Source: a virus
IMG/VR virus record: IMGVR_UViG_3300027902_000013
Span: 1 to 44,989 of that record
Length of the DNA stretch: 44,989 nt
Direction: 5' to 3' (one strand)
Position numbers and translations under genes: made by a program. Positions 1 to 44,432 of this stretch are shown here, one piece after another. Positions within the stretch are counted from its first letter, which is position 1. Every line of letters starts with the position of its first letter. Below the pieces are notes generated by a model. The model was given only the letters and a program-made list of their open reading frames with translations, made no database searches and was not told the DNA's origin.

Positions 1-2681
1 ATCAACATATATTCTTCAGGACTTGGAATTGGATCCAGAGGAATAGTGCATTGAATCATATCAAATCTATCTTGTAGTAATTGAATAACTGACGACCACG
101 AATCTCCAACAGCAACAATACTTCCAACAGTATTCTGTCTCTTTGGACAAACAATATACTCACCACCATATTTTGAATAGTATTCTAACTTCAACCATTC
201 TTCAGATCCTGTTGGAGCTTTTATGTTTACCCACCCACAATCTAAATCCTTTGAAGTAATTATCACAGCGCTTCCAACAAACTTCTTCTTTGGAATAGGA
301 TCTATCGCTTGATTTCTTGCTAGACTATTAACCACTTCAGTAAAGTTAGTGTAAACTTCAGGTAGTATCCCCGATACATGAATGTTAGATAACCTCATCG
401 TAGTATCAAGGTAGTATGCATACACCTTATCAAACATCGCTTCGTAAGAGAAGAATCCCTTAGTCGAGCGGTTAGCAAATATCTTTAAGAGGTTGTCATT
501 GACACCCCTAAAAGGAGCAGGGATCTGTCCTATGTCGAGTATTTTTCCGAGATATGAGTAACCGCTCGTTATCCCAAATAACATATTTGATAAGTACTTT
601 CCATTGAACACAATTCCTTCGCAACCAAGTTCGATTCCATCTATCATATCCTCAACAAGAAATTCAAACTGTTCCGCGAAGGGACCTAACTTAAGTGCTA
701 CTTCCTGTAATTTTGTTCGGGATGTGAACTCATCAATATATTTCCATGTCTCTGATTCGCCTCTATACTTAACTGGTTTTACAATCTTATAAGTCTTATC
801 CTTTAAATAATTGGTTAGATTCGTAACACCTTTAACTATTACTCCAAAAGGAACTTTGATTCCAGCATTTATAGCTTCTTCTCTCATTACATACTTGTTT
901 AGCTCTAACTCTGCTGATTTAGAATCAGCACCAAGTATATTCTTTCCATTCTTAATTAAATAGTCTACTGTATCGCCTGTGTATACATCTGGACATAAAA
1001 TTACATCAGCTCTATCTACATATGACCAGAAGTTATCAATTATCGTTAGTTTGTTTAGTCCTTCGCCAATCCTAGGACGTTGAATATTCTGATCTGAACT
1101 ATAAAATGGACAAAAATACCACGTATTATCGTATTTTTTGGCCAAAGATTCAACAATTGATGGATACATTCCTCCTTCCATAACAAGCAAGTTACCAAAA
1201 GGTGTCTCTTGTGGATTAGAATCTACTTGCTTTTTAACTGATTTTCCATCAGTTACAGCAGGTTCAACTCCTACATTCTGTAGTCCAGCTGGTCCAATAT
1301 CTGGTTTTGGAAGTGGAGTATCTGTTGGAAGTTCTGGTATAGTAGTAGGATCATATGGTGTCATACCTGGTTGCATGATTGGAAACTCACCCCAGTTGAC
1401 AGGGTCCATATTATTTCTAACTCTTTCTTCATTGATTGAAGTAAATCCAACCTTTAAGTTGGTTTCTCGTTCTTTTAAAGCATACTCTGCGTCAACGGGA
1501 ACGTTCTCTTCGTATGCAACGAATAGATTATCATCATACAGCGGCATGATAGCTGAATTGATTCGTTCTTCTAGTCGTCTTAACTTTGGAGTAATAGTAT
1601 CTCTTTGATATCTAGTTTCAGACGTATCCATATTACTTCTATTTACTTCGTCAGTAGATATTTTACTCAAAGGAACACCATAAGCTCCTAAAATCTCTTG
1701 CATAGTAATTTTTCTACCAGTTACATACGACATTTCTTTTGGAGTCATTGTTATAGCTTCGTAAGTGAATCGTCTATCAAGAACTAATAGTTTTCCAGCT
1801 TTAGCAGGACCAGAATATCTATTCTTCCAATCTTCTTGAATTCTTTTAATCTCGTCTTCGTCAATTCCTTCTACATCAACTGACATGATTCCTTCAGGTC
1901 GACCAGCATTTCTTAATAAAGAAGTTTCAAACGCTTTAACTTGCTCATCAAATACAACACTTTGTGCTATAGCCGCCATTGGAGAGAAACCATAGTAAGA
2001 ATTTGTTGGATTAGATGTCTTCATATGAACAATTTCATCCACATCAAAAGGAATCTTATCTGGTCCTCTAATTCCAACGTATCCAGCTATAAACTCTGTC
2101 TTACTTGGAACGATTCTCATTAGTTGGGAGGGAAGTATCCATAGTTGCGCCGGAATCCCAAACTTATTTTTGATAAGATATACATATGTATTACCTGTCA
2201 GTTCTTGAAACAACTGTATCTCTTCAAACAACTGGAATCTTGTAGTCCACGGATTTGGATTATCTAACAATTCAATCCAAGGATGTTGAAATACTTCTTC
2301 TATCTCTACTGCGTCATTTAATTTCTTTGTTAAGACAGGATTAGTATGTAACCTAGCTTTAGTTTTTCTATCCACTGGTTTGGTTGCTAATATAGACTTC
2401 ATATTCTTCTTGGGTATCTTCAAGTATAACTTAAGCGGAACTTTAGCAACTGATTGTGCATTGATATTAGAACAGATGTAGACGTATGAACGGTACTGAT
2501 GTACTTGATACATCCAATCTTGATCTGGAGCTACTTCATGCGCGGGATATCCCCAAGGAAATTCAAAGAATGTTACTTTTCTTTCTCCTGGTCCTGTTCC
2601 TGTCTGGTCAACTGTTTTAACTACAGACCCACCATTTGGTAGTTTCTGGAGTTGTTCTGAACTTTGAACTTCTGGTGTCAT
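1..2681 (-). CDS. Portal protein fused to a C-terminal ATP-grasp ligase module (partial)
   Basis: One open frame runs from an ATG at 2681 past the left edge, giving at least 893 codons. I read it base by base across the junction at 1040-1210 and found no stop. Residues about 30-430 read as an HK97-type portal: the first 100 residues match the domain, a helical stretch with YYGFSPMAAIAQSV is present, and so is the region LRRLEERINSAIMPLYDD. A Pro-rich linker spans about 437-496. From residue 500 the protein resembles a GARS/PurD-like ATP-grasp: a Rossmann-like pre-domain (VILCPDVYTGDTVDYL), the nucleotide-binding strand YKIVKP (635-636), ELGCEGIVFNGK near 690, and a PurD-like tail (VGSIVAVGD). 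The SD AGAAGGA lies inside the end of the upstream zinc-ribbon gene. The portal forms the DNA entry vertex. The ligase substrate is unknown. Confidence 0.88.
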   Translation of the reverse strand, partial: MTPEVQSSEQLQKLPNGGSVVKTVDQTGTGPGERKVTFFEFPWGYPAHEVAPDQDWMYQVHQYRSYVYICSNINAQSVAKVPLKLYLKIPKKNMKSILATKPVDRKTKARLHTNPVLTKKLNDAVEIEEVFQHPWIELLDNPNPWTTRFQLFEEIQLFQELTGNTYVYLIKNKFGIPAQLWILPSQLMRIVPSKTEFIAGYVGIRGPDKIPFDVDEIVHMKTSNPTNSYYGFSPMAAIAQSVVFDEQVKAFETSLLRNAGRPEGIMSVDVEGIDEDEIKRIQEDWKNRYSGPAKAGKLLVLDRRFTYEAITMTPKEMSYVTGRKITMQEILGAYGVPLSKISTDEVNRSNMDTSETRYQRDTITPKLRRLEERINSAIMPLYDDNLFVAYEENVPVDAEYALKERETNLKVGFTSINEERVRNNMDPVNWGEFPIMQPGMTPYDPTTIPELPTDTPLPKPDIGPAGLQNVGVEPAVTDGKSVKKQVDSNPQETPFGNLLVMEGGMYPSIVESLAKKYDNTWYFCPFYSSDQNIQRPRIGEGLNKLTIIDNFWSYVDRADVILCPDVYTGDTVDYLIKNGKNILGADSKSAELELNKYVMREEAINAGIKVPFGVIVKGVTNLTNYLKDKTYKIVKPVKYRGESETWKYIDEFTSRTKLQEVALKLGPFAEQFEFLVEDMIDGIELGCEGIVFNGKYLSNMLFGITSGYSYLGKILDIGQIPAPFRGVNDNLLKIFANRSTKGFFSYEAMFDKVYAYYLDTTMRLSNIHVSGILPEVYTNFTEVVNSLARNQAIDPIPKKKFVGSAVIITSKDLDCGWVNIKAPTGSEEWLKLEYYSKYGGEYIVCPKRQNTVGSIVAVGDSWSSVIQLLQDRFDMIQCTIPLDPIPSPEEYML

Positions 2682-3384: not shown

Positions 3385-4857
3385 TTACATGTCCCAGTCA
3401 TCATTTTCTTCGGAATTTGTATCCAAAACCATCGAAAATAATCTTTTTCTTCTCGCTAAATTCGAGAAAGCTATCAGAATTGCGTCTAATTTATCGGGAG
3501 AGTGACCGTTCAAAAGTAGTTTTTCATCTGATTTTGGTTTCAATTTGTTGACGCCTTGACCACTTTTTAGTACCATTTCGGTCTTTACTTTGGAAATTTG
3601 TCTCTTTAAGTCATCATCTTTCGATAAACAGATAGTTTTTTCTTCCAGTCTACTTTTAAAAGCGAATGCACATTCTGTTCTCTTGTCTGCGAAACGGTTC
3701 CATTGCATAGCTGCGCCAGCTGAATGATAAGGAACTACTTTGTGTCCAAGTTTCTTTAACGATTGGATACATGCGCTTCCATACCCACCATCAGCGTCCA
3801 CAGCAGTAGATGTAACTTTGTTCTCTCTAATTGTCTCATCTAACTTAGCAACAAGCGCTTCATTAGAAATTCTTTGTTGATATACAATCTGTTTACATTC
3901 TACATCTTTTAATAGATATGCAGTAGTATAGTCTTGACCTTCACCACTTGGGTCCACGCCTAGCACGCATATATCTTTGAAGCCTTCTAATTTTTCTGGA
4001 TCTATGTCTTTCGCATCTCTATTCATAGCGTTGTCAACAGACTTATGACTGAAGAGAATATCTTTACTAGCTTCAGGAAAGACGCTTAAAACTTTCGCAA
4101 GGTATTCTGGAGATTCCTCTCCATACTCAGCTTTCATGAACTCAACCCATTCTTTTGAGGGTAAGTTCGGATTTACTACTTTACCCGCAAGAACGTTCGG
4201 CGTCTGAAGCGCACTTATGGATAGTTTGTTCCACCCATTACTACTATCCGGTGGTCCTGATAAGAAAGTATTGTAGAAATAACCATCCATTGAAATTGCA
4301 TTTCCAATTGCAAGTATACGAGATTCAGGATTTGTACACATGGTCAGCGCACCCTCAAATACGCTATCGTCTAGTCCTGCCGCTTCGTCTAAGCACAAAA
4401 GTAAATGTTTGGAATGCAAACCCTGGAAACGAGAACCCAAACTCTCATCAGCCTGTGACTTCTTCTCAGACGTATAACCCATAATGAAATGATCTGGTTC
4501 AAGAGGATCTTTCAACATCAAAGTTTCGTAGATTTTAACTCCAGTTGGAAACGGGATTTCTTTGAACTGAGAATAGATCTCTCGAAACAATATCGCAGCA
4601 CAAAGTTTGTAAGTAGGAGCTGTACAAATCACAATCGCATCTGGATATGAGAAGAACCACCACAAACAAATTCGGGCAGCAACAAAGCTTTTACCGCATC
4701 CAAACGCGGACTTTACTGTCGTTCGCGGCCACCGCATTACACTCCTCCAAATGTCGTATTGTTTCTCCCAACACTTTGTTTTAAAAAAGTAGGACTCAAA
4801 CAATTCTGGTTTGGATCTAAATTCTTTTATTACGTTTACACCAGCTGATTCAAGCAT
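3385..4857 (-). CDS. terL: Terminase large subunit (TerL)
   Basis: This is the packaging ATPase and nuclease. Counting from the ATG at 4857, Walker A is SAFGCGKS (50-57) and Walker B is LLLCLDEAAG (152-161, D157 E158). The RNase H-like nuclease starts at VLGVDPSGEGQD, and the acidic residue in SPDKLDAILIAF lies near the end. The length of 490 aa is typical. I chose 4857 over the ATG at 4872 because GGAG lies seven bases before it, and because ATG and the upstream stop share ATGCTTGA, a coupled overlap. It follows a homing endonuclease gene that separates it from the TerS-like gene. Confidence 0.93.
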   Translation of the reverse strand: MLESAGVNVIKEFRSKPELFESYFFKTKCWEKQYDIWRSVMRWPRTTVKSAFGCGKSFVAARICLWWFFSYPDAIVICTAPTYKLCAAILFREIYSQFKEIPFPTGVKIYETLMLKDPLEPDHFIMGYTSEKKSQADESLGSRFQGLHSKHLLLCLDEAAGLDDSVFEGALTMCTNPESRILAIGNAISMDGYFYNTFLSGPPDSSNGWNKLSISALQTPNVLAGKVVNPNLPSKEWVEFMKAEYGEESPEYLAKVLSVFPEASKDILFSHKSVDNAMNRDAKDIDPEKLEGFKDICVLGVDPSGEGQDYTTAYLLKDVECKQIVYQQRISNEALVAKLDETIRENKVTSTAVDADGGYGSACIQSLKKLGHKVVPYHSAGAAMQWNRFADKRTECAFAFKSRLEEKTICLSKDDDLKRQISKVKTEMVLKSGQGVNKLKPKSDEKLLLNGHSPDKLDAILIAFSNLARRKRLFSMVLDTNSEENDDWDM

Positions 4858-5869
4858 TATTAGTCTCCACAAATTGTTTAATTTTCTCTTCTACTTGTTT
4901 CATATCATCTAACTCTGTATACCAAATTACTAAAGTATCCCAACCATACTTCTTAAAATGATCTATTCTATCTTTTTCATGAATCTCTCTTGGAATATGA
5001 TTCCATTCTTCTGTGTGTCTCCATCCAAAATGTTCTATCAACTTCATTTGATCTTTATTAGTAAAGTCTGGGTTTCTCCTATCTATAATGTGAGTTTTGT
5101 TTCCGGTATATTTCCACTTACCCGGATACATCTCTTTCAAAAGATTTAAGATTATAGTTTCTGGTATATTAGGTCCTTCTGCTGCTACTGCGTCTGCCAT
5201 CTTTTGTAAAAATTCTGGATCTGTCCAACATTCTTTTCCAGCAGTAGAATGTCTTTCTAAAGTTTCTGGGCTATTATGAATCTGGAGCATTTTTTCTCTA
5301 TGTTTCGGATCTTCCCACTTTTTCTTTTGAGCTATCCTATTCTTTTCTATTGTCTCTGGTTTATTTAGTGATATCTTTAAACTCTTTCTGTGCTCTTCTG
5401 ATAAGGGTTTTTTATGTACTTCAGATAATCTTTTTCTATAATCCAGATCTTTCCAAAGATCTATACTTCGCTGTCTATTAACTTCTCTCTGTTCCGGTGT
5501 TGCTTTCTGTCCCTTTCTACCTTTACCACCGACTGCCCATTTGTTTCCTATTCCAAAAGTTTTTCTTCTTAAAGTTTCTTTCTCTGTAAGAACCATTTTC
5601 TTCTTGTTTGGTCCGCGCTTGTATCCTTTTGGTTTATGAGTTTTCTTTATGGTTGTTGGGCATTGTGAAGCGTATTGACTACAACACAAAGCTCCATTCT
5701 TAAACTGATACTTCCAAGGACGGCCGCATCCAAAATCACAAAGACTTGGATTAAGTCTTACCTTTTCTATCTTCAGTTTCTTTTTCCTATGTCCTCTAAT
5801 GAACCTATTTGGTTTTTTAGTATCTCTACCGATTTTAGTTTCTCTACCGCAACCACACTCGCAAAGCAT
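4850..5869 (-). CDS. EDxHD (Vsr-like) homing endonuclease between terS and terL
   Basis: This is a 339-aa free-standing nuclease gene. The N-terminus has two zinc-knuckle-like blocks (CECGCGRE and CDFGCGRPWKY...CCSQYASQC). The middle (about 125-225) has NUMOD-like DNA-binding repeats such as SEEHRKSLK and WEDPKHREKM. The C-terminal domain matches the EDxHD/Vsr-like fold of the I-Bth0305I type: E237 (IPETIILNLL), D268 (RNPDF), IEHFGWRH with H285, D300, and the final strand WDTLVIWYTEL. Its SD AAGGAGG overlaps the TerS-like stop, and its own end overlaps the terL start by eight bases. Two related genes are at 13602 and 36498. Activity is inferred, not shown. Confidence 0.85.
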   Translation of the reverse strand: MLCECGCGRETKIGRDTKKPNRFIRGHRKKKLKIEKVRLNPSLCDFGCGRPWKYQFKNGALCCSQYASQCPTTIKKTHKPKGYKRGPNKKKMVLTEKETLRRKTFGIGNKWAVGGKGRKGQKATPEQREVNRQRSIDLWKDLDYRKRLSEVHKKPLSEEHRKSLKISLNKPETIEKNRIAQKKKWEDPKHREKMLQIHNSPETLERHSTAGKECWTDPEFLQKMADAVAAEGPNIPETIILNLLKEMYPGKWKYTGNKTHIIDRRNPDFTNKDQMKLIEHFGWRHTEEWNHIPREIHEKDRIDHFKKYGWDTLVIWYTELDDMKQVEEKIKQFVETNNA

Positions 5870-14453: not shown

Positions 14454-14622
14454 GAAAATCTTTAATACAAAACAACTAGAAGAACAGCTGAATAAAATGG
14501 AATCTTCGAAGAACGTACTGTTGGAAAGATTAAATGAAATATTTACAGACATGAAAACCACTGACGAATTGTTTAGAGAGTTTGAATTGTTCTTATTAAA
14601 GAAAGGGTTTAAGAAAGAATGA
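14365..14622 (+). CDS. Small membrane-anchored coiled-coil protein
   Basis: GTG at 14365 follows AAAGGAGACAAGAC. The 85-aa product has one transmembrane helix (MLMWVVLAIVILWGIGLEL), then a charged helix (SKVEKIFNTKQLEEQLNKM) likely to be coiled coil. It overlaps the end of the endonuclease gene by 89 bases. Its stop overlaps the next start (ATGA). Possible roles such as inner-membrane superinfection control or lysis timing are guesses. Confidence 0.65.
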   Translation: MLTVDMLMWVVLAIVILWGIGLELRLSKVEKIFNTKQLEEQLNKMESSKNVLLERLNEIFTDMKTTDELFREFELFLLKKGFKKE

Positions 14623-14795
14623 AGGAAAATGATCTTACTGGAGGATATATAGTTCCAAAAGAGTTTGTGAATGATTTGTATAATGTAATACTTAAATCAA
14701 AGATAAAGACCAGTAAAATTTGTAAAAAGTGTATCGTTAAACCATGCTGTTCGCAAGTATGTAGTCCTTTTATAAAAGAACAAACGGAGAAGTAA
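14619..14795 (+). CDS. Cys-rich small protein with CIVKPCCS motif (copy A)
   Basis: ATG 14619 overlaps the upstream stop. The 58-aa protein ends with ICKKCIVKPCCSQVCSPF, a C-x2-C-x5-CC-x3-C arrangement that could bind zinc or an iron-sulfur cluster. The gene at 16520 has the same core (FCKECIVKPCCSEPC). Such short Cys motifs recur in small proteins of many phages, without a known function to my knowledge. Confidence 0.7.
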   Translation: MKENDLTGGYIVPKEFVNDLYNVILKSKIKTSKICKKCIVKPCCSQVCSPFIKEQTEK

Positions 14796-14797
14796 GA

Positions 14798-15211
14798 ATG
14801 GAACCAAAAGAAGGATATTACAAATGCAGTAAATGCAACGGTGAGGGAAAACTATCTGATAAAGTTTATTGTGAGAAATGTCTTGGAACCGGAATAGTTG
14901 ATTGGGTAGAACAGGTAACCGGGAAGAGAATACCAATATATCATAATTTAACTAACTGGTCCTTTACCACAACTATAGATCCAATCGAAGTTGCTTCATT
15001 TGGTGATAATTACAAACGATTTGTTTCATCCAGAACAGAAATTTCTGTAGAGTTTGATACAGATCTTTCTGGAATTTTATGTAACGTTGGTGATATAATT
15101 AAGCTCGAATATCCACCAGGAAGTAATCTTAAAAACTTTATTATAACAAGTATAGAAACATCTTCATTTGACCAAAAATGTAAGATTAAAGCTATTAAGT
15201 CTAACATCTAA
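14798..15211 (+). CDS. DnaJ-type zinc-finger protein with a C-terminal beta domain
   Basis: The 137-aa protein has an N-terminal CSKCNGEGKL...CEKCLGTGIVDWVEQVTG, two CxxCxGxG repeats followed by DW and a G. This is a zinc module known from DnaJ and found in several phage structural proteins. The C-terminal half is beta-rich (TEISVEFDTDLSG; FIITSIETS). A relative of the zinc module is in the protein at 19937. It starts two bases after the stop of the Cys-rich gene. Confidence 0.65.
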   Translation: MEPKEGYYKCSKCNGEGKLSDKVYCEKCLGTGIVDWVEQVTGKRIPIYHNLTNWSFTTTIDPIEVASFGDNYKRFVSSRTEISVEFDTDLSGILCNVGDIIKLEYPPGSNLKNFIITSIETSSFDQKCKIKAIKSNI

Positions 15212-15771: not shown

Positions 15772-16533
15772 TTGACAAAAATTGACATCACAATGACCGC
15801 CACGTTAAGACCCAATATAGTCCAACAAACATTAGAATCTTTTTGTAAAAACTTGTTCATAGAAAGAGATAGGTATAGACTAATAGTAAACGTTGATCCT
15901 GTGGGGGAAAGTGTTAAACAAGAAGACGCATTAGATGTTTGTAAAGAATATTTTAAAGATGTAATCTATAATTTTCCAACTGAATCTTCTCTAGCGAAAG
16001 CTGTTAAGTGGGTTTGGAGTCAAGTATCTGCAGATTTTATTTTTCATTTAGAAGATGACTGGCTACTGACAACTAAATTAAGTATTGATGATATGATTCG
16101 AATTCTCAATGAACATAACGAAATTGCATGTTTAAGACTTCCGAAAGTTGATATTCCCAAAAAAGGTAGAATAAATTTTCTTAGTGCTGTTTATAACTAT
16201 AAAGGAGATAATCATTTTGTTACAGAGAATCCTAAACATTTTGGATTAAATCCGGTATTGATAAAGAAAAATTTTATAACACAAGCACTTCCGTTTCTAA
16301 CTGATGACTTTAATCCAGAAAAACAGTTTTTAATTCCTCAAAACGAAGACATGATTCATTTGATAAATTGTTGGAAGTATGCGATCTACGCTTTTCCCGG
16401 AATTAAAGCGTTAGTAGTTGATAATGGAGAAAACTGGAAAATAAAGAATGGATTTAGAAAACCGGAATCCGCTTATCTAAAAGAATATTCAACAAACGCA
16501 TTTACAGTTTGGGAAAAATATGCCAAAGTCTGA
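15772..16533 (+). CDS. GT-A type glycosyltransferase
   Basis: TTG 15772 follows AGAGAAAGAAG and gives the conserved opening MTKIDITMTATLRPNIVQQT. The 253-aa protein has a Rossmann-like start, NVDPVG, then a metal-binding DXD-type motif in FIFHLEDDWLL. A late acidic block is PQNEDMIHLI. This matches a phage-borne family of GT2-like enzymes with TATLRP and DPVG. The sugar and acceptor are unknown; the host surface, phage DNA or virion proteins are all possible. An internal ATG at 15793 would delete the first strand. Confidence 0.75.
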   Translation: MTKIDITMTATLRPNIVQQTLESFCKNLFIERDRYRLIVNVDPVGESVKQEDALDVCKEYFKDVIYNFPTESSLAKAVKWVWSQVSADFIFHLEDDWLLTTKLSIDDMIRILNEHNEIACLRLPKVDIPKKGRINFLSAVYNYKGDNHFVTENPKHFGLNPVLIKKNFITQALPFLTDDFNPEKQFLIPQNEDMIHLINCWKYAIYAFPGIKALVVDNGENWKIKNGFRKPESAYLKEYSTNAFTVWEKYAKV

Positions 16534-16720
16534 AGCGGTTGTTGAAATGGTTGTGAATATTAAATACTACTGGAGTAAACCTGGTTTTTCTTTTAGGAAG
16601 ATTATAACAAACAAATCTCGTTTTTGTAAAGAGTGTATTGTTAAACCGTGTTGTAGTGAACCATGCATCGACGTTCTTAAAGAAGTAAAAGAACGATATA
16701 AAAAATTTGGCATAGTATAG
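16520..16720 (+). CDS. Cys-rich small protein with CIVKPCCS motif (copy B)
   Basis: ATG 16520 lies inside the end of the glycosyltransferase gene. The 66-aa protein contains FCKECIVKPCCSEPCIDVL, nearly the same core as the protein at 14619. Both have an upstream helical region and a short Lys-rich tail. The two copies lie 1.7 kb apart and are probably paralogues. Confidence 0.7.
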   Translation: MPKSEAVVEMVVNIKYYWSKPGFSFRKIITNKSRFCKECIVKPCCSEPCIDVLKEVKERYKKFGIV

Positions 16721-17837: not shown

Positions 17838-18040
17838 CAAAAAGAGAGCGTCTGATTTATCAAAACGAAGCTCGAATTGAGTATGCAAAGATTTGCTTAA
17901 AGAATCATCCTGAAACCAAAGCTTGGTATCTTGAAGAAGATAGAGATGTTTCATTAAGAGAGTATATTGATATATGTAAGAAAAGAATACAAACAATAAA
18001 TAGGTTGACAGACGAAGAACTTGATATAACTGTAAATTAG
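17834..18040 (+). CDS. 68-aa hypothetical helical protein
   Basis: ATG overlaps the upstream stop (ATGA). It starts MTKRERLIYQNEARIEYAKI and is entirely helical and acidic. It ends with TAG, followed by an SD (GGAGG) for the arginine decarboxylase gene. No family known. Confidence 0.6.
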   Translation: MTKRERLIYQNEARIEYAKICLKNHPETKAWYLEEDRDVSLREYIDICKKRIQTINRLTDEELDITVN

Positions 18041-18055
18041 GAGGATTGAAATAAG

Positions 18056-18598
18056 ATGATACCAAAACAACTTTGGTTAACTAGAGGATTTGGATTCCAC
18101 AAGGACAGACTTAATTCATTCGAAATGTCTTTACGTGATGCTAAAATATCCAACTATAACTTAGTCCAAGTATCAAGTATCTTTCCTCCTAAATGTAAAA
18201 TTATAAGTTCTAAAAAAGGAACCAGTCTTTTAAGACCAGGTCAGATAGTTTATACAGTTCTATCTAGAAATCAAAGTAACGAAAGAGGAAGGTTGATATC
18301 TGCGTCAATTGGTCTTGCACTTCCAGAAGATAGATCCGTTCATGGATATTTGACTGAGTTACATACTGAAGGAATGAATGAATTAGAAACAAGAGATTGG
18401 AGTGAAGACCAAGCAGCAGAAATGTTAGCATCAACTTTAGGAATTCAATTTGATGGAGACAAGGCGTGGGATAAAGAAAAGGACATATATCGACTTGGGA
18501 ATCGAGTAGTAAAAACAAGAAGTATTTGTTCAGCTGCAGAATGTTTGAAAGGTGGTTGGACTACTGTGGTTGCTGCATGTATTTTTATAACGGAGTAA
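18056..18598 (+). CDS. Pyruvoyl-dependent arginine decarboxylase
   Basis: The 180-aa protein matches the PvlArgDC family (PF01862 type) throughout: LWLTRGFGFHKDRLNSFEMS, LRDAKISNYNLVQVSSIFPP, LRPGQIVYTVLSRNQSN, RLISASIGLALPEDRSVHGY and LTELHTEG. The family cuts itself between two serines, here Ser40-Ser41 in VSSIFPP, to make the pyruvoyl group that decarboxylates arginine to agmatine. The SD is AGGAGG, 11 bases upstream. It sits between small genes and two glycosyltransferases. A phage copy would change host arginine or polyamine supply. Specificity is inferred from the family. Confidence 0.88.
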   Translation: MIPKQLWLTRGFGFHKDRLNSFEMSLRDAKISNYNLVQVSSIFPPKCKIISSKKGTSLLRPGQIVYTVLSRNQSNERGRLISASIGLALPEDRSVHGYLTELHTEGMNELETRDWSEDQAAEMLASTLGIQFDGDKAWDKEKDIYRLGNRVVKTRSICSAAECLKGGWTTVVAACIFITE

Positions 18599-18601
18599 TC
18601 T

Positions 18602-19270
18602 ATGATCTCAGTAATTCTTCCAGTCCTAGAAGAACGAGAAATGACGTCTAACATTCTCAACAACATTTCTGTCAATACAATTAAACCAGATGAGATAGTT
18701 TTGATAGATAATAGTAGTACACATGATATACAAAATCTCGTCCCACAGTACACATGTTTGGATATTGTCTATCTGAAACAGAAAAAGAACATAGGAGTTA
18801 ACGCTTCTTGGAATCTCGGAATCGAACGTGCTCAACATGAATTGATAAGTATCTTAAATAACGATTTAATTTTGAATAACTTGTTTTTTGAGAACATTGA
18901 AAAAGTTATGGTTGAGTATCCAGATGTAGGAATTTGCGTTCCAAATACAACTAAAGAAATACCAATTGATAATCCAAATACTAAGATCGCTATATTAGGT
19001 ACAAGAGAGGGGTGGGCGTTTACTATAAGATCTGAGATAGCTAAACGAGCACTTCCGATTCCAGAAACATTATTCATGTTCTTTGGCGATGATTATCTGT
19101 TTCATTTCGCTAGATCATTAGGATACAAAATAGTTAAAGTTTTAAACAACGAAATAGTTCATTTAAAAGAAACAACAGTAAGAAAGGTTTTGGGAAAGAA
19201 GTATCAAGATACATTAGACAAGGAAGGAAAAGAATGGAGGAAGATCTATGATAAAATCTATCTTACATAG
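18602..19270 (+). CDS. GT2-family glycosyltransferase
   Basis: The 222-aa protein opens with the typical GT2 strand MISVILPVLEEREMTSNIL, then EIVLIDNSSTHDI. The nucleotide-binding core is KKNIGVNASWNLGIERA, and LNNDLIL is the DXD-type metal site. A late FFGDDYLFHFARSLGY carries the usual acidic catalytic residues, as in rhamnosyltransferase-like enzymes. The SD is weak. It overlaps the next gene by 23 bases, so the two probably act in one pathway. Confidence 0.83.
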   Translation: MISVILPVLEEREMTSNILNNISVNTIKPDEIVLIDNSSTHDIQNLVPQYTCLDIVYLKQKKNIGVNASWNLGIERAQHELISILNNDLILNNLFFENIEKVMVEYPDVGICVPNTTKEIPIDNPNTKIAILGTREGWAFTIRSEIAKRALPIPETLFMFFGDDYLFHFARSLGYKIVKVLNNEIVHLKETTVRKVLGKKYQDTLDKEGKEWRKIYDKIYLT

Positions 19271-19940
19271 TGGCGCTAATGGAGATTTGATTTATGGTCT
19301 CTACATTGTAAACCAATTAAAATGCGAGAATTTTTATGTAGGAAACAAGTATATCACACCAGAATACTACAAGTTGCTTCTTCCTTTACTACAAGCTCAA
19401 CCTTACATAAAGAATGTTGAATATGTTGATAGTAAAAAAGAAGTAGAAATAAACCTAGATTGTTGGAGAAAAGCTGGGCGAATGATCTATTATCAACATA
19501 TAGTTTTGTCTCACATTCTGATGTTAGAGAAAGTTTATAAAATCAAGTTAGAATACAACTTAAAAGATCCGTGGATTTACAATGTTCCAAAACTTACTAA
19601 ACCAATGGACTACATTTGTGTTAATAGAAGTTTCAAGTGGCATGTCCCTTTTCCATACGATTTCTATATTAAAGATAGAAACGTAGTTTTCTGCGGATTG
19701 AAAGAAGAGTTTGAATATTTTTCTAGATTCCTAGCGAAGATAAAATACTACCACCCAAAAGACTTTCTAGATTTTGCTAAAGTAATTCAAGGATCTAAAT
19801 TCTTCCTTGGAAATCAATCAGTTGGATCAGCGATAGCACAAGGATTAGCGCATCCCCAAGTTCAAGAAATTTGTTTCTTATTACCGAACTGTGTTCCATA
19901 TCATACTCCACCTGAATACGGTGTAAACGAGGAACCATGA
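19248..19940 (+). CDS. GT-B glycosyltransferase, heptosyltransferase (GT9)-like
   Basis: The 230-aa protein has an N-terminal LHSGANGDLIYGLYIVNQL resembling the G-x-GD start of ADP-heptose transferases. VVFCGLKEEFEYF leads to the C-terminal nucleotide-sugar-binding half, with FFLGNQSVGSAIAQGLAHP, the GN-S...A..G...P...E pattern of GT-B enzymes. It is short for the family (usually over 300 aa), so parts may be reduced. It is coupled to the GT2 gene upstream and to a zinc-finger gene downstream. Confidence 0.7.
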   Translation: MIKSILHSGANGDLIYGLYIVNQLKCENFYVGNKYITPEYYKLLLPLLQAQPYIKNVEYVDSKKEVEINLDCWRKAGRMIYYQHIVLSHILMLEKVYKIKLEYNLKDPWIYNVPKLTKPMDYICVNRSFKWHVPFPYDFYIKDRNVVFCGLKEEFEYFSRFLAKIKYYHPKDFLDFAKVIQGSKFFLGNQSVGSAIAQGLAHPQVQEICFLLPNCVPYHTPPEYGVNEEP

Positions 19941-20431
19941 TTACTAGAAAACAAATCTATAGATTCTTAATAAGAAAAATATTCAAAGTTCCAGAAGGAG
20001 GAATTATTCCCAATCGCATTCGGTGGGTTGGATTTATACTATTCCCGTTAAGAAGTTTCTTTTACTTCAACAAAGAAATTAGATATAGACTAGACAGAGA
20101 TTGTTTTGAGATCAACGGAATTAGACTTACGTCAGATTTCATTGATACTTTAGCTGCTGAAATGTGTAGGAAAAATATGTTTCATCAATTTGTAAAAGTA
20201 GAAGATGGAACGTTACATATCAGAACTTTTGATGTAAAACCATTGATTGGAACTTTGATATTCGATTGTTCCGAATGTAATGGGACAGGAATGAAAACGA
20301 TAAATGATCCACATTATAGAACCCATGAAGATTTTTGTGGTACTTGTTATGGAACTGGGTATGTAGATTGGACAACTAATATAACGAGGAGGAGTGAAAA
20401 TGGCAACAAGAATAACAACTACGAGAGATAA
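19937..20431 (+). CDS. Protein with a DnaJ-type zinc module
   Basis: The 164-aa protein has a basic N-terminus (MITRKQIYRFLIRKIFKVPE) with a short hydrophobic stretch (WVGFILFPLRSFFYF). A C-terminal zinc module reads CSECNGTGMK...CGTCYGTGYVDW. The same CxxCxGTG-then-DW plan is in the protein at 14798. ATG overlaps the upstream stop. The end overlaps the next gene by 32 bases. Confidence 0.6.
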   Translation: MITRKQIYRFLIRKIFKVPEGGIIPNRIRWVGFILFPLRSFFYFNKEIRYRLDRDCFEINGIRLTSDFIDTLAAEMCRKNMFHQFVKVEDGTLHIRTFDVKPLIGTLIFDCSECNGTGMKTINDPHYRTHEDFCGTCYGTGYVDWTTNITRRSENGNKNNNYER

Positions 20432-42071: not shown

Positions 42072-44432
42072 TTACACGTGTTCTACTTGAACTAGTTCAG
42101 CTTTAAATAATATTGTTGTAGCAGATAAAGCAACTCCAAGAATCTGAATAACATTATTAGCTGCACTTGGAGCTGTTTGAGTAAGAGTATTTCCGGTAGT
42201 TCCTGTAATAGTAAGATATATCAATCCACCTATCGTCCAGTTCCATGAATCATCTCGAATTATACCACTATATAAGTAAGTTCCAGATGATCCATTACCT
42301 ATTGAAGCTTGTCCAACTATAACTGCAGCGTTAGCATTTGCAATAGCATCAGCTTTAGCTATGTTAGCAGTTCCATCAGACTTAATATAACAAGCGTCTC
42401 CAATATTTTGAGCTTGTGCAGAAGTTAGAGTTATTGTTTGTCCACTAACTGTATGATCAGATCCTGGACTTGTAAGAGTAGCTGCTAGTCCAGAATAACC
42501 CGAGATACCACTATATCCGCTAATTCCTGAGTAACCACTTGTTCCTGCACTTCCTCCAGCACCTGCTGTTCCAGAGTAACCCGAGATTCCACTATAACCA
42601 GAGATTCCAGAGTAACCACTCGTAGAAGTTAGACCAGAGTACCCAGATAATCCAGAGTATCCAGAGATCCCAGAGTAACCACTTATTCCTGAATAACCAC
42701 TAATCCCACTATATCCGCTAGTTCCAGTTAGACCAGAGTAACCGCTAATCCCACTATAACCGGAGATACCTGAGTAGCCAGATATTCCAGAGTAACCACT
42801 AATCCCGCTATATCCAGAACGTCCAGAGTAACCGCTAATTCCTGAGTAACTAGAGTATCCTGAGATTCCACTATATCCACTTGTTCCTGAGTAACCGCTT
42901 GTTCCTTGGGGTCCACTTCCTATTAGTTGAACAGATAGATAGTTCCTATAGTTCGCGGAATTAGCATATCCAGAACTTGGAGCACCCATTCCCATAAGTA
43001 CCCACAACTCTACATAATCAGTAGTTCCATTAAAATATAAAACATCTGAAACTTGTGAAGCTACACCATTAGCAAATCCATAGTTTGTATTTCCGTATGT
43101 AGTTCCTGTAGATTTTAAGTTACCATTTTGGTATAATTGAGCTTCAAAATAATCTCCTTGTTTCCCAGTTCCAATCCCTCCAAATTCAACTCTCGCAAGA
43201 CCATTTACGTAGTAATAACCAGATGTTCCTGGAGTAATTCTTTTATTAACAGTATCACATGTACAACCAACATTAAAATCAACCGTATCTATATTAAACT
43301 TTTCTGGCGTGTCTGAATCTGAAACTGTAAAATTTTGAGTTGCAGTTAAATACATTCTAGCAGCTATATTACCTGGAGCTTGTCCAGAGTAACCTGATAT
43401 TCCTGAGTATCCAGAAGCACCTTGATATCCAGCACCAGCATCATAACCAGAAATACCAGAATATCCACTAGTCCCTACAACCCCTGAATAACCAGACGTA
43501 CCAGTTGTTCCTACGATACCTGAGTATCCTGAGACTCCACTATAACCACTTATTCCAGAATATCCACTAGATCCAGGACTTCCAGATCCATCTATTCCCG
43601 AATAACCAGAGATACCAGAATAAGAACTAAATCCCGAGTATCCTGATGTACCATCTACTCCTTGAATTCCTGAGTAACCACTTGTTCCAATTATCCCACT
43701 ATATCCTGAGATTCCAGAGTAACCTGACGAACCTACAATTCCACTGTATCCTGAAATACCAGAATATCCGCTAGTCCCTATAATACCCGAGTATCCGCTG
43801 ATGCCTGAGTATCCACTAACTCCGCTATACCCAGATGTTCCTGTTATACCTTGAACGCCTGAGTAACCAGATACGCCGTCAGCACCCACACTCCCACTAA
43901 AACCAGAATAACCAGAAGTACCTGCATTTCCTTGTACCCCCGAATAGCCACTTGTTCCTACTAGTCCACTATAACCACTGATACCAGAGTAGCCAGATAC
44001 TCCACTGTATCCAGAAAGTCCGGAGTAACCACTTACACCATCTATTCCTTGTACTCCAGAATAACCACTTGTTCCAACTACTCCAGAATAACCTGAGACT
44101 CCAGAGTATCCCGATGTTCCAACAATACCAGAATATCCACTAACACCATCAACTCCGTAATGTCCAGAATAACCAGACGTTCCAACTATTCCACTATACC
44201 CACTAATTCCTGAGTAACCGCTAGCTCCATCTACTCCATAATGACCACTATATCCAGAGATTCCAGAATAACCCGAACCACCCAAAGACCAACCAGAAGA
44301 AGTACCATAATAAATCATTCCGTCAGCTTTGTTGTACAAAAGTCTAGCTTCATCATCAGAAGTCCACGACGGTAAACTATTAACTTCTTGTAAAATTAGT
44401 TTACCTTTTGAATTTATTCCATAGTATTTCAT
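42072..44432 (-). CDS. Collagen-like fibre with an inserted C1q-like domain
   Basis: The 786-aa protein has, after a 50-residue head (MKYYGINSKGKLILQEVNSL), Gly at every third residue for about 310 residues, in SGYSGISGYSG units with Thr, Val and Asp variants. Residues about 365-500 form a globular C1q/TNF-like domain (FNIDTVDFNVGCTCDT, GYYYVNGLARVEFGG, QLYQNGNLKSTG). A second collagen-like run follows, then a C-terminal head (GLIYLTITGTTGNTLTQTAP, VIQILGVALSA) seen in phage fibres. Unusually there is almost no Pro. It is probably a trimeric surface fibre. Confidence 0.82.
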   Translation of the reverse strand: MKYYGINSKGKLILQEVNSLPSWTSDDEARLLYNKADGMIYYGTSSGWSLGGSGYSGISGYSGHYGVDGASGYSGISGYSGIVGTSGYSGHYGVDGVSGYSGIVGTSGYSGVSGYSGVVGTSGYSGVQGIDGVSGYSGLSGYSGVSGYSGISGYSGLVGTSGYSGVQGNAGTSGYSGFSGSVGADGVSGYSGVQGITGTSGYSGVSGYSGISGYSGIIGTSGYSGISGYSGIVGSSGYSGISGYSGIIGTSGYSGIQGVDGTSGYSGFSSYSGISGYSGIDGSGSPGSSGYSGISGYSGVSGYSGIVGTTGTSGYSGVVGTSGYSGISGYDAGAGYQGASGYSGISGYSGQAPGNIAARMYLTATQNFTVSDSDTPEKFNIDTVDFNVGCTCDTVNKRITPGTSGYYYVNGLARVEFGGIGTGKQGDYFEAQLYQNGNLKSTGTTYGNTNYGFANGVASQVSDVLYFNGTTDYVELWVLMGMGAPSSGYANSANYRNYLSVQLIGSGPQGTSGYSGTSGYSGISGYSSYSGISGYSGRSGYSGISGYSGISGYSGISGYSGISGYSGLTGTSGYSGISGYSGISGYSGISGYSGLSGYSGLTSTSGYSGISGYSGISGYSGTAGAGGSAGTSGYSGISGYSGISGYSGLAATLTSPGSDHTVSGQTITLTSAQAQNIGDACYIKSDGTANIAKADAIANANAAVIVGQASIGNGSSGTYLYSGIIRDDSWNWTIGGLIYLTITGTTGNTLTQTAPSAANNVIQILGVALSATTILFKAELVQVEHV

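Follow-up and report, generated by a model that had tools for sequence, protein, structure and literature searches.

The window analysed here is the whole of one IMG/VR virus record (IMGVR_UViG_3300027902_000013; 44,989 bases). It carries, at 18056–18598 on the plus strand, an open reading frame that starts with ATG and encodes a 180-residue protein of the pyruvoyl-dependent arginine decarboxylase (PvlArgDC) family, embedded among phage genes. The features considered are as follows.

3–2681, minus strand: portal protein, truncated where the contig stops (phrog_2662, 1.1e-60), its C-terminus carrying a PurD-like ATP-grasp domain (about 3–1247)
3385–4872, minus strand: terminase large subunit (phrog_2, 5.3e-29; tblastn matches to 210 phage records)
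14619–20431, plus strand: run of 14 closely packed genes that includes the decarboxylase (gaps of -23 to +21 nt)
18039–18044, plus strand: AGGAGG ribosome-binding site, separated from the ATG by 11 nt, read directly
18056–18598, plus strand: PvlArgDC proenzyme of 180 aa, a PF01862 member of the long bacterial subtype (E 2e-51; fold match 1n2m/2qqd)
18122–18124, plus strand: codon of Glu23, at the archaeal Asp35 position (Glu in 91 of 93 sequences)
18173–18178, plus strand: Ser40-Ser41 codons, where self-cleavage is predicted, with Ser41 as source of the pyruvoyl group (pairs with Ser52-Ser53 of M. jannaschii; Ser41 unchanged across 93 sequences)
18356–18358, plus strand: codon of Glu101, counterpart of catalytic Glu109 (invariant in 93 sequences)
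18602–19270, plus strand: family 2 glycosyltransferase, directly after the decarboxylase (PF00535, 2.8e-13)
25583–29680, minus strand: tail tip attachment protein J-like (phrog_31, 1.3e-144; PF24801)

A preliminary description of this DNA, made from the letters alone, had named the product a pyruvoyl-dependent arginine decarboxylase of PF01862 and proposed a profile search as the check. That search agrees with the call: residues 2–178 match model positions 1–161 of 161 with E 2e-51 and 174.5 bits, a full-length match above the curated cut-off of 22.7. The protein also scores above the cut-off of TIGR00286 (122.7 against 106.95) and below that of NF009064 (176.3 against 207). In the whole record, the PF01862 search found this single place; the SpeD fold (PF02675) was matched neither by the window protein, which matches PF01862 only, nor anywhere else in the record. 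Judged by these scores, the similarity to PF01862 lies far beyond chance, and the gene is an intact member of the family that very probably converts arginine to agmatine, the first step towards polyamines.

The contig derives from a tailed phage. The plus-strand run of 14 genes, which is probably one transcript, is flanked by minus-strand packaging and tail blocks, so that the decarboxylase has the terminase and portal genes on one side and tail genes on the other; a PHROGs search recognised a head-tail adaptor as well. No capsid gene was recognised in the 44,989 bases, and the record is therefore probably incomplete. The GC content of the decarboxylase gene (0.355) equals that of the contig (0.354) almost exactly. 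The operon contains neither an Rfam family nor a tRNA, and its plus strand has no terminator-like site. The placement of the gene in a phage, also part of the preliminary description, is thus borne out.

Alignment with the Methanocaldococcus jannaschii enzyme pairs Ser40-Ser41 with Ser52-Ser53, Glu101 with Glu109, and Asn35 with Asn47. Over residues 15–112, the M. jannaschii reference sequence used here is the same as the PDB match, apart from the site of the S53A mutation in 1n2m. Across 93 homologues, Ser41, Glu101, Asn35, Leu19 and Leu26 are invariant. The self-cleaving serine pair proposed from the letters is therefore present in the alignment as a predicted cleavage site, and loss of the catalytic Glu or of substrate-binding residues, named beforehand as what would speak against the enzyme, is not seen at Glu101, Asn35, Leu19 or Leu26. 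The preliminary reading of the residues was right for the catalytic ones and passed over one position: at archaeal Asp35, which we take to be the guanidinium-binding residue, the window protein has Glu23. Glu occupies this position in 91 of the 93 sequences, including every long-type sequence aligned, and Asp solely in two archaeal-type rows. An AlphaFold2 model built with 30 homologues has a mean pLDDT of 92. Searched against the PDB, it gave 12 matches at E <= 0.001, all 12 of them PvlArgDC chains (the S53A, N47A and E109Q mutants among them), with TM-scores by target of up to 0.92 against the M. jannaschii enzyme.

The nearest relatives of the window enzyme are cellular. A scan of genome contigs yielded 575 confirmed stretches. 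Among the best 80 of these, to which the comparison was limited, an Omnitrophota sequence comes first (54% identity), and most of those after it are from Acidobacteriota and Gemmatimonadota, with about 50% identity; by its sequence, the window enzyme belongs to the bacterial ‘long’ subtype of PF01862. At least 11 long-type cellular loci have an agmatinase-like gene no more than about 2 kb away, in most cases as the direct neighbour, and so does the archaeal-type locus L003. Within four ORFs, the whole set holds genes resembling agmatine deiminase (at least 25 loci), N-carbamoylputrescine amidase (at least 23) and deoxyhypusine synthase (at least 20). When representatives were checked against NCBIfam, two agmatinases scored above the TIGR01230 cut-off, and the AguA, AguB and deoxyhypusine-synthase representatives had their best matches in those families, below equivalog cut-offs. 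These cellular neighbourhoods, with agmatinase or AguA/AguB-like genes beside the decarboxylase, are the main ground on which we infer arginine as the substrate. Because cellular members with the same Glu adjoin agmatinase, Glu23 is better seen as a subtype trait than as a family-defining one; in the alignment, the bacterial subtype as a rule has Glu for Asp35, which would be no argument against arginine. L003 (3989–6177), filed as a Klebsiella pneumoniae plasmid and possibly a contamination, encodes a decarboxylase of the archaeal type, and genes resembling spermidine synthase and agmatinase come after it; L015 (8001–8543), on a contig labelled Micrarchaeota, encodes a decarboxylase of the bacterial long subtype.

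The gene recurs in other phages. Alignment-based scans of IMG/VR retrieved nine further distinct phage sequences: L084 (the same as L085 and L086), L087, L089 (the same as L088), L090, L091, L093 (the same as L092), L099, L100 and L101. Alignments were needed, as pattern scans of viral contigs with single sequences of the decarboxylase, the terminase and the KamA-like gene described below returned nothing. A terminase gene lies near the decarboxylase in L087, L089, L093 (with the major head protein) and L099. The neighbours are a major head protein in L090, a portal in L101, amidase and thymidylate synthase in L084, DNA polymerase A and a helicase in L091, and in L100 only a ribonucleotide reductase, a weaker hallmark. 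Gene order is similar within the pairs L084/L093 and L089/L090, and about eight phage groups therefore carry the gene. The serine, the catalytic Glu and the Asn are conserved in each of the ten phage sequences; the cleavage pair of L099 reads Thr-Ser instead of Ser-Ser. To account for the phage copies, the tree requires seven label changes, and a constraint to one clade was rejected (p-AU 0.016). A single phage origin is thus weakly rejected and the enzyme was apparently taken up by phages more than once, the number of acquisitions being uncertain because most branches are poorly resolved and that of L087 is long. In two related phage pairs, pS is 0.85–0.86 and pN about 0.27, a ratio that is approximate because synonymous sites are saturated; it points to purifying selection on the coding sequence in those two pairs, to which the test was confined, the window's own lineage having no close relative. 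No PF01862 decarboxylase was found in 50,697 catalogued phages or in PHROGs, and none at E <= 0.001 in a viral structure library; INPHARED gave no match to the window enzyme or to that of L091. Annotation by PHROGs alone would therefore miss the family. One carrier, L090, has at 11386–14992 a NeuB-family gene (PF03102) and, by eye, a sugar cytidylyltransferase gene, possibly a pathway for a sialic-acid-like sugar encoded in one gene block with the decarboxylase.

Viral arginine decarboxylation is also known with PLP-dependent enzymes. Pyruvoyl-dependent arginine and ornithine decarboxylases of phages have been published for pelagiphages and other phages, with the SpeD fold (PMC9992855, PMC10407285). 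They resemble the window enzyme in being phage-encoded, in their pyruvoyl cofactor and in the expected product, agmatine or putrescine, but their SpeD/AdoMetDC fold is unrelated, and the M. jannaschii enzyme has been called non-homologous to them (PMC9992855). The initial remark that phage enzymes producing agmatine are uncommon is therefore half right: phage arginine decarboxylation was already known (PMC9992855), and what appears to be new is the PF01862 fold in phages, with about ten uncultivated carriers. A search of the main texts of open papers found none on a phage PF01862 protein. With the M. jannaschii enzyme (1MT1, 1N2M, 2QQC, 2QQD; PF01862), the window protein shares the fold, the Ser-Ser pair, the catalytic Glu and the Asn47 equivalent; it differs in being phage-encoded, in its 24–29% identity, in Glu23 instead of Asp35 and in its greater length, with extra segments around residues 46–58 and 130–150. 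The long-type enzymes of Omnitrophota, Acidobacteriota, Gemmatimonadota and other bacteria share its subtype and Glu23 at 48–54% identity over the full length, but they often occur with agmatinase or AguA/AguB and deoxyhypusine-synthase-like genes, whereas the phage gene stands alone. AaxB of Chlamydia pneumoniae, for which homology to the M. jannaschii enzyme has been stated, is by description likewise a pyruvoyl arginine decarboxylase self-cleaving at serine; unlike the window enzyme, it works with the porin AaxA and the antiporter AaxC in arginine:agmatine exchange (PMC2720952). Phages have thus taken up a further, unrelated enzyme fold for arginine decarboxylation. Convergent acquisition, if true, would suggest that the supply of agmatine or putrescine is a real bottleneck of infection. 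The ten phage sequences are ready material for enzyme tests.

We favour, with good though not full confidence, a phage auxiliary metabolic gene: a stand-alone PvlArgDC whose product the host carries on from agmatine to putrescine. The 180-residue proenzyme would fold and cleave itself between Ser40 and Ser41, Ser41 would become the pyruvoyl cofactor with no need for PLP, and the enzyme, as is typical of the family, would assemble as a trimer. It would remove CO2 from host arginine to give agmatine, which a host agmatinase, or agmatine deiminase with N-carbamoylputrescine amidase, could turn into putrescine and longer polyamines; these may benefit translation or replication of the phage, or the packing of its DNA. 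DNA packaging and a modification path are among the uses that the preliminary description had put forward as possible. The window phage showed no partner from the polyamine pathway: searches of its record for agmatinase, agmatine deiminase and SpeD came back empty, although downstream enzymes may lie outside the fragment. In all, seven carrier records, themselves fragments, hold no agmatinase/arginase, agmatine deiminase or SpeD, in searches whose controls responded in known genomes. Agmatine is therefore probably handed to host enzymes, and by analogy with what has been proposed for pelagiphages with SpeD-derived enzymes this appears the most likely arrangement.

Several other readings start from the same observations. 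The Glu23 subtype might have moved to a different substrate, whether ornithine, lysine or a related amino acid, in a shift such as is documented for SpeD homologues (PMC9992855, PMC10407285); the exchange of Asp35 for Glu would suit such a shift, as would the mere 54% identity of the phage copy to its closest cellular relative among the best 80 of 575. We think it unlikely, given that cellular members with the same Glu adjoin agmatinase or agmatine-deiminase-like genes and that Leu19, Leu26 and Asn35 are invariant. The lack, in the carriers, of downstream polyamine genes of the tested families would also fit a benefit from removing arginine or consuming protons, for instance by blunting acid stress or an arginine-dependent host process. 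However, no AaxC- or AdiC-type antiporter was spotted in the neighbourhood of the gene, and the arginine and ornithine decarboxylases already known from phages have been read as a means of supplying polyamines, which makes this benefit quite improbable. Least credible of all is a non-functional passenger or a host gene in a mixed contig. The window phage is represented by one contig only and the closest relatives are cellular, but the phage genes on both sides, the matching GC content, the tight gene packing, the strong ribosome site, the intact catalytic residues and the recurrence in other phages speak against it; on phage context, base composition and recurrence together, we reject an assembly artefact or host fragment.

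A last alternative stems from the portal gene, the C-terminal half of whose product resembles a PurD-type ATP-grasp ligase, a rare domain. The domain is related (E 7e-35) to a separate gene at 8712–9992 in L089, whose stop overlaps the start codon of the decarboxylase there (ATGA), and it is the only gene besides the decarboxylase common to the window and the fetched loci of other carriers. Neither it nor the L089 homologue has relatives in INPHARED, and a scan for relatives with weak patterns found L088 only. Agmatine might then be a building block and not feed the polyamine pool: the phage ligase would join its amine to a carboxylate group on a small molecule, a glycan or a protein of the virion. 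Glycosyltransferase genes do adjoin the decarboxylase. We hold this to be very unlikely: there are two cases only and the other carriers are without the domain, the window domain is about 17 kb from the decarboxylase on the other strand, the ATP-grasp likeness is weak (PDB profile E 8e-05; TIGR00877 5.3e-05), and the structure model of the domain has a pLDDT of just 36. From the two cases, a joint amine-ligation function of domain and decarboxylase is possible; the narrower claim, that agmatine is the substrate which a PurD-like ligase conjugates to a virion component or glycan, we regard as highly doubtful. We know of no description of such conjugation by a phage ATP-grasp ligase.

The window holds another gene for an enzyme of basic amino acids, 2.5 kb from the decarboxylase: a KamA-type radical SAM protein (21078–21983, minus strand), which matches the lysine 2,3-aminomutase model at 3.8e-74, below every cut-off, the match stopping short of the model's C-terminal part. 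Relatives occur in 20 phage records, mostly of large phages. KamA was not found in the other decarboxylase carriers, in a search in which no positive control responded, and the pairing therefore looks peculiar to the window phage. Within the 14-gene run, two small proteins (14798–15211 and 19937–20431, plus strand) have DnaJ-type zinc-finger motifs (CxxCxGxG), both below the Pfam cut-off, and two short proteins (14619–14795 and 16520–16720, plus strand) share the segment CK.CIVKPCCS and are likely a duplicated cysteine-rich gene. Three look-alike proteins with a zinc-knuckle-like N-terminus and an endonuclease-like C-terminus (4850–5869, minus; 13602–14453, plus; 36498–37136, minus, the last with a DUF559/MTES_1575 match) are perhaps free-standing homing endonucleases. 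A long collagen-like GXX repeat protein with many SGYSG units (PF01391, 1.6e-57) is encoded at 42072–44432 on the minus strand.
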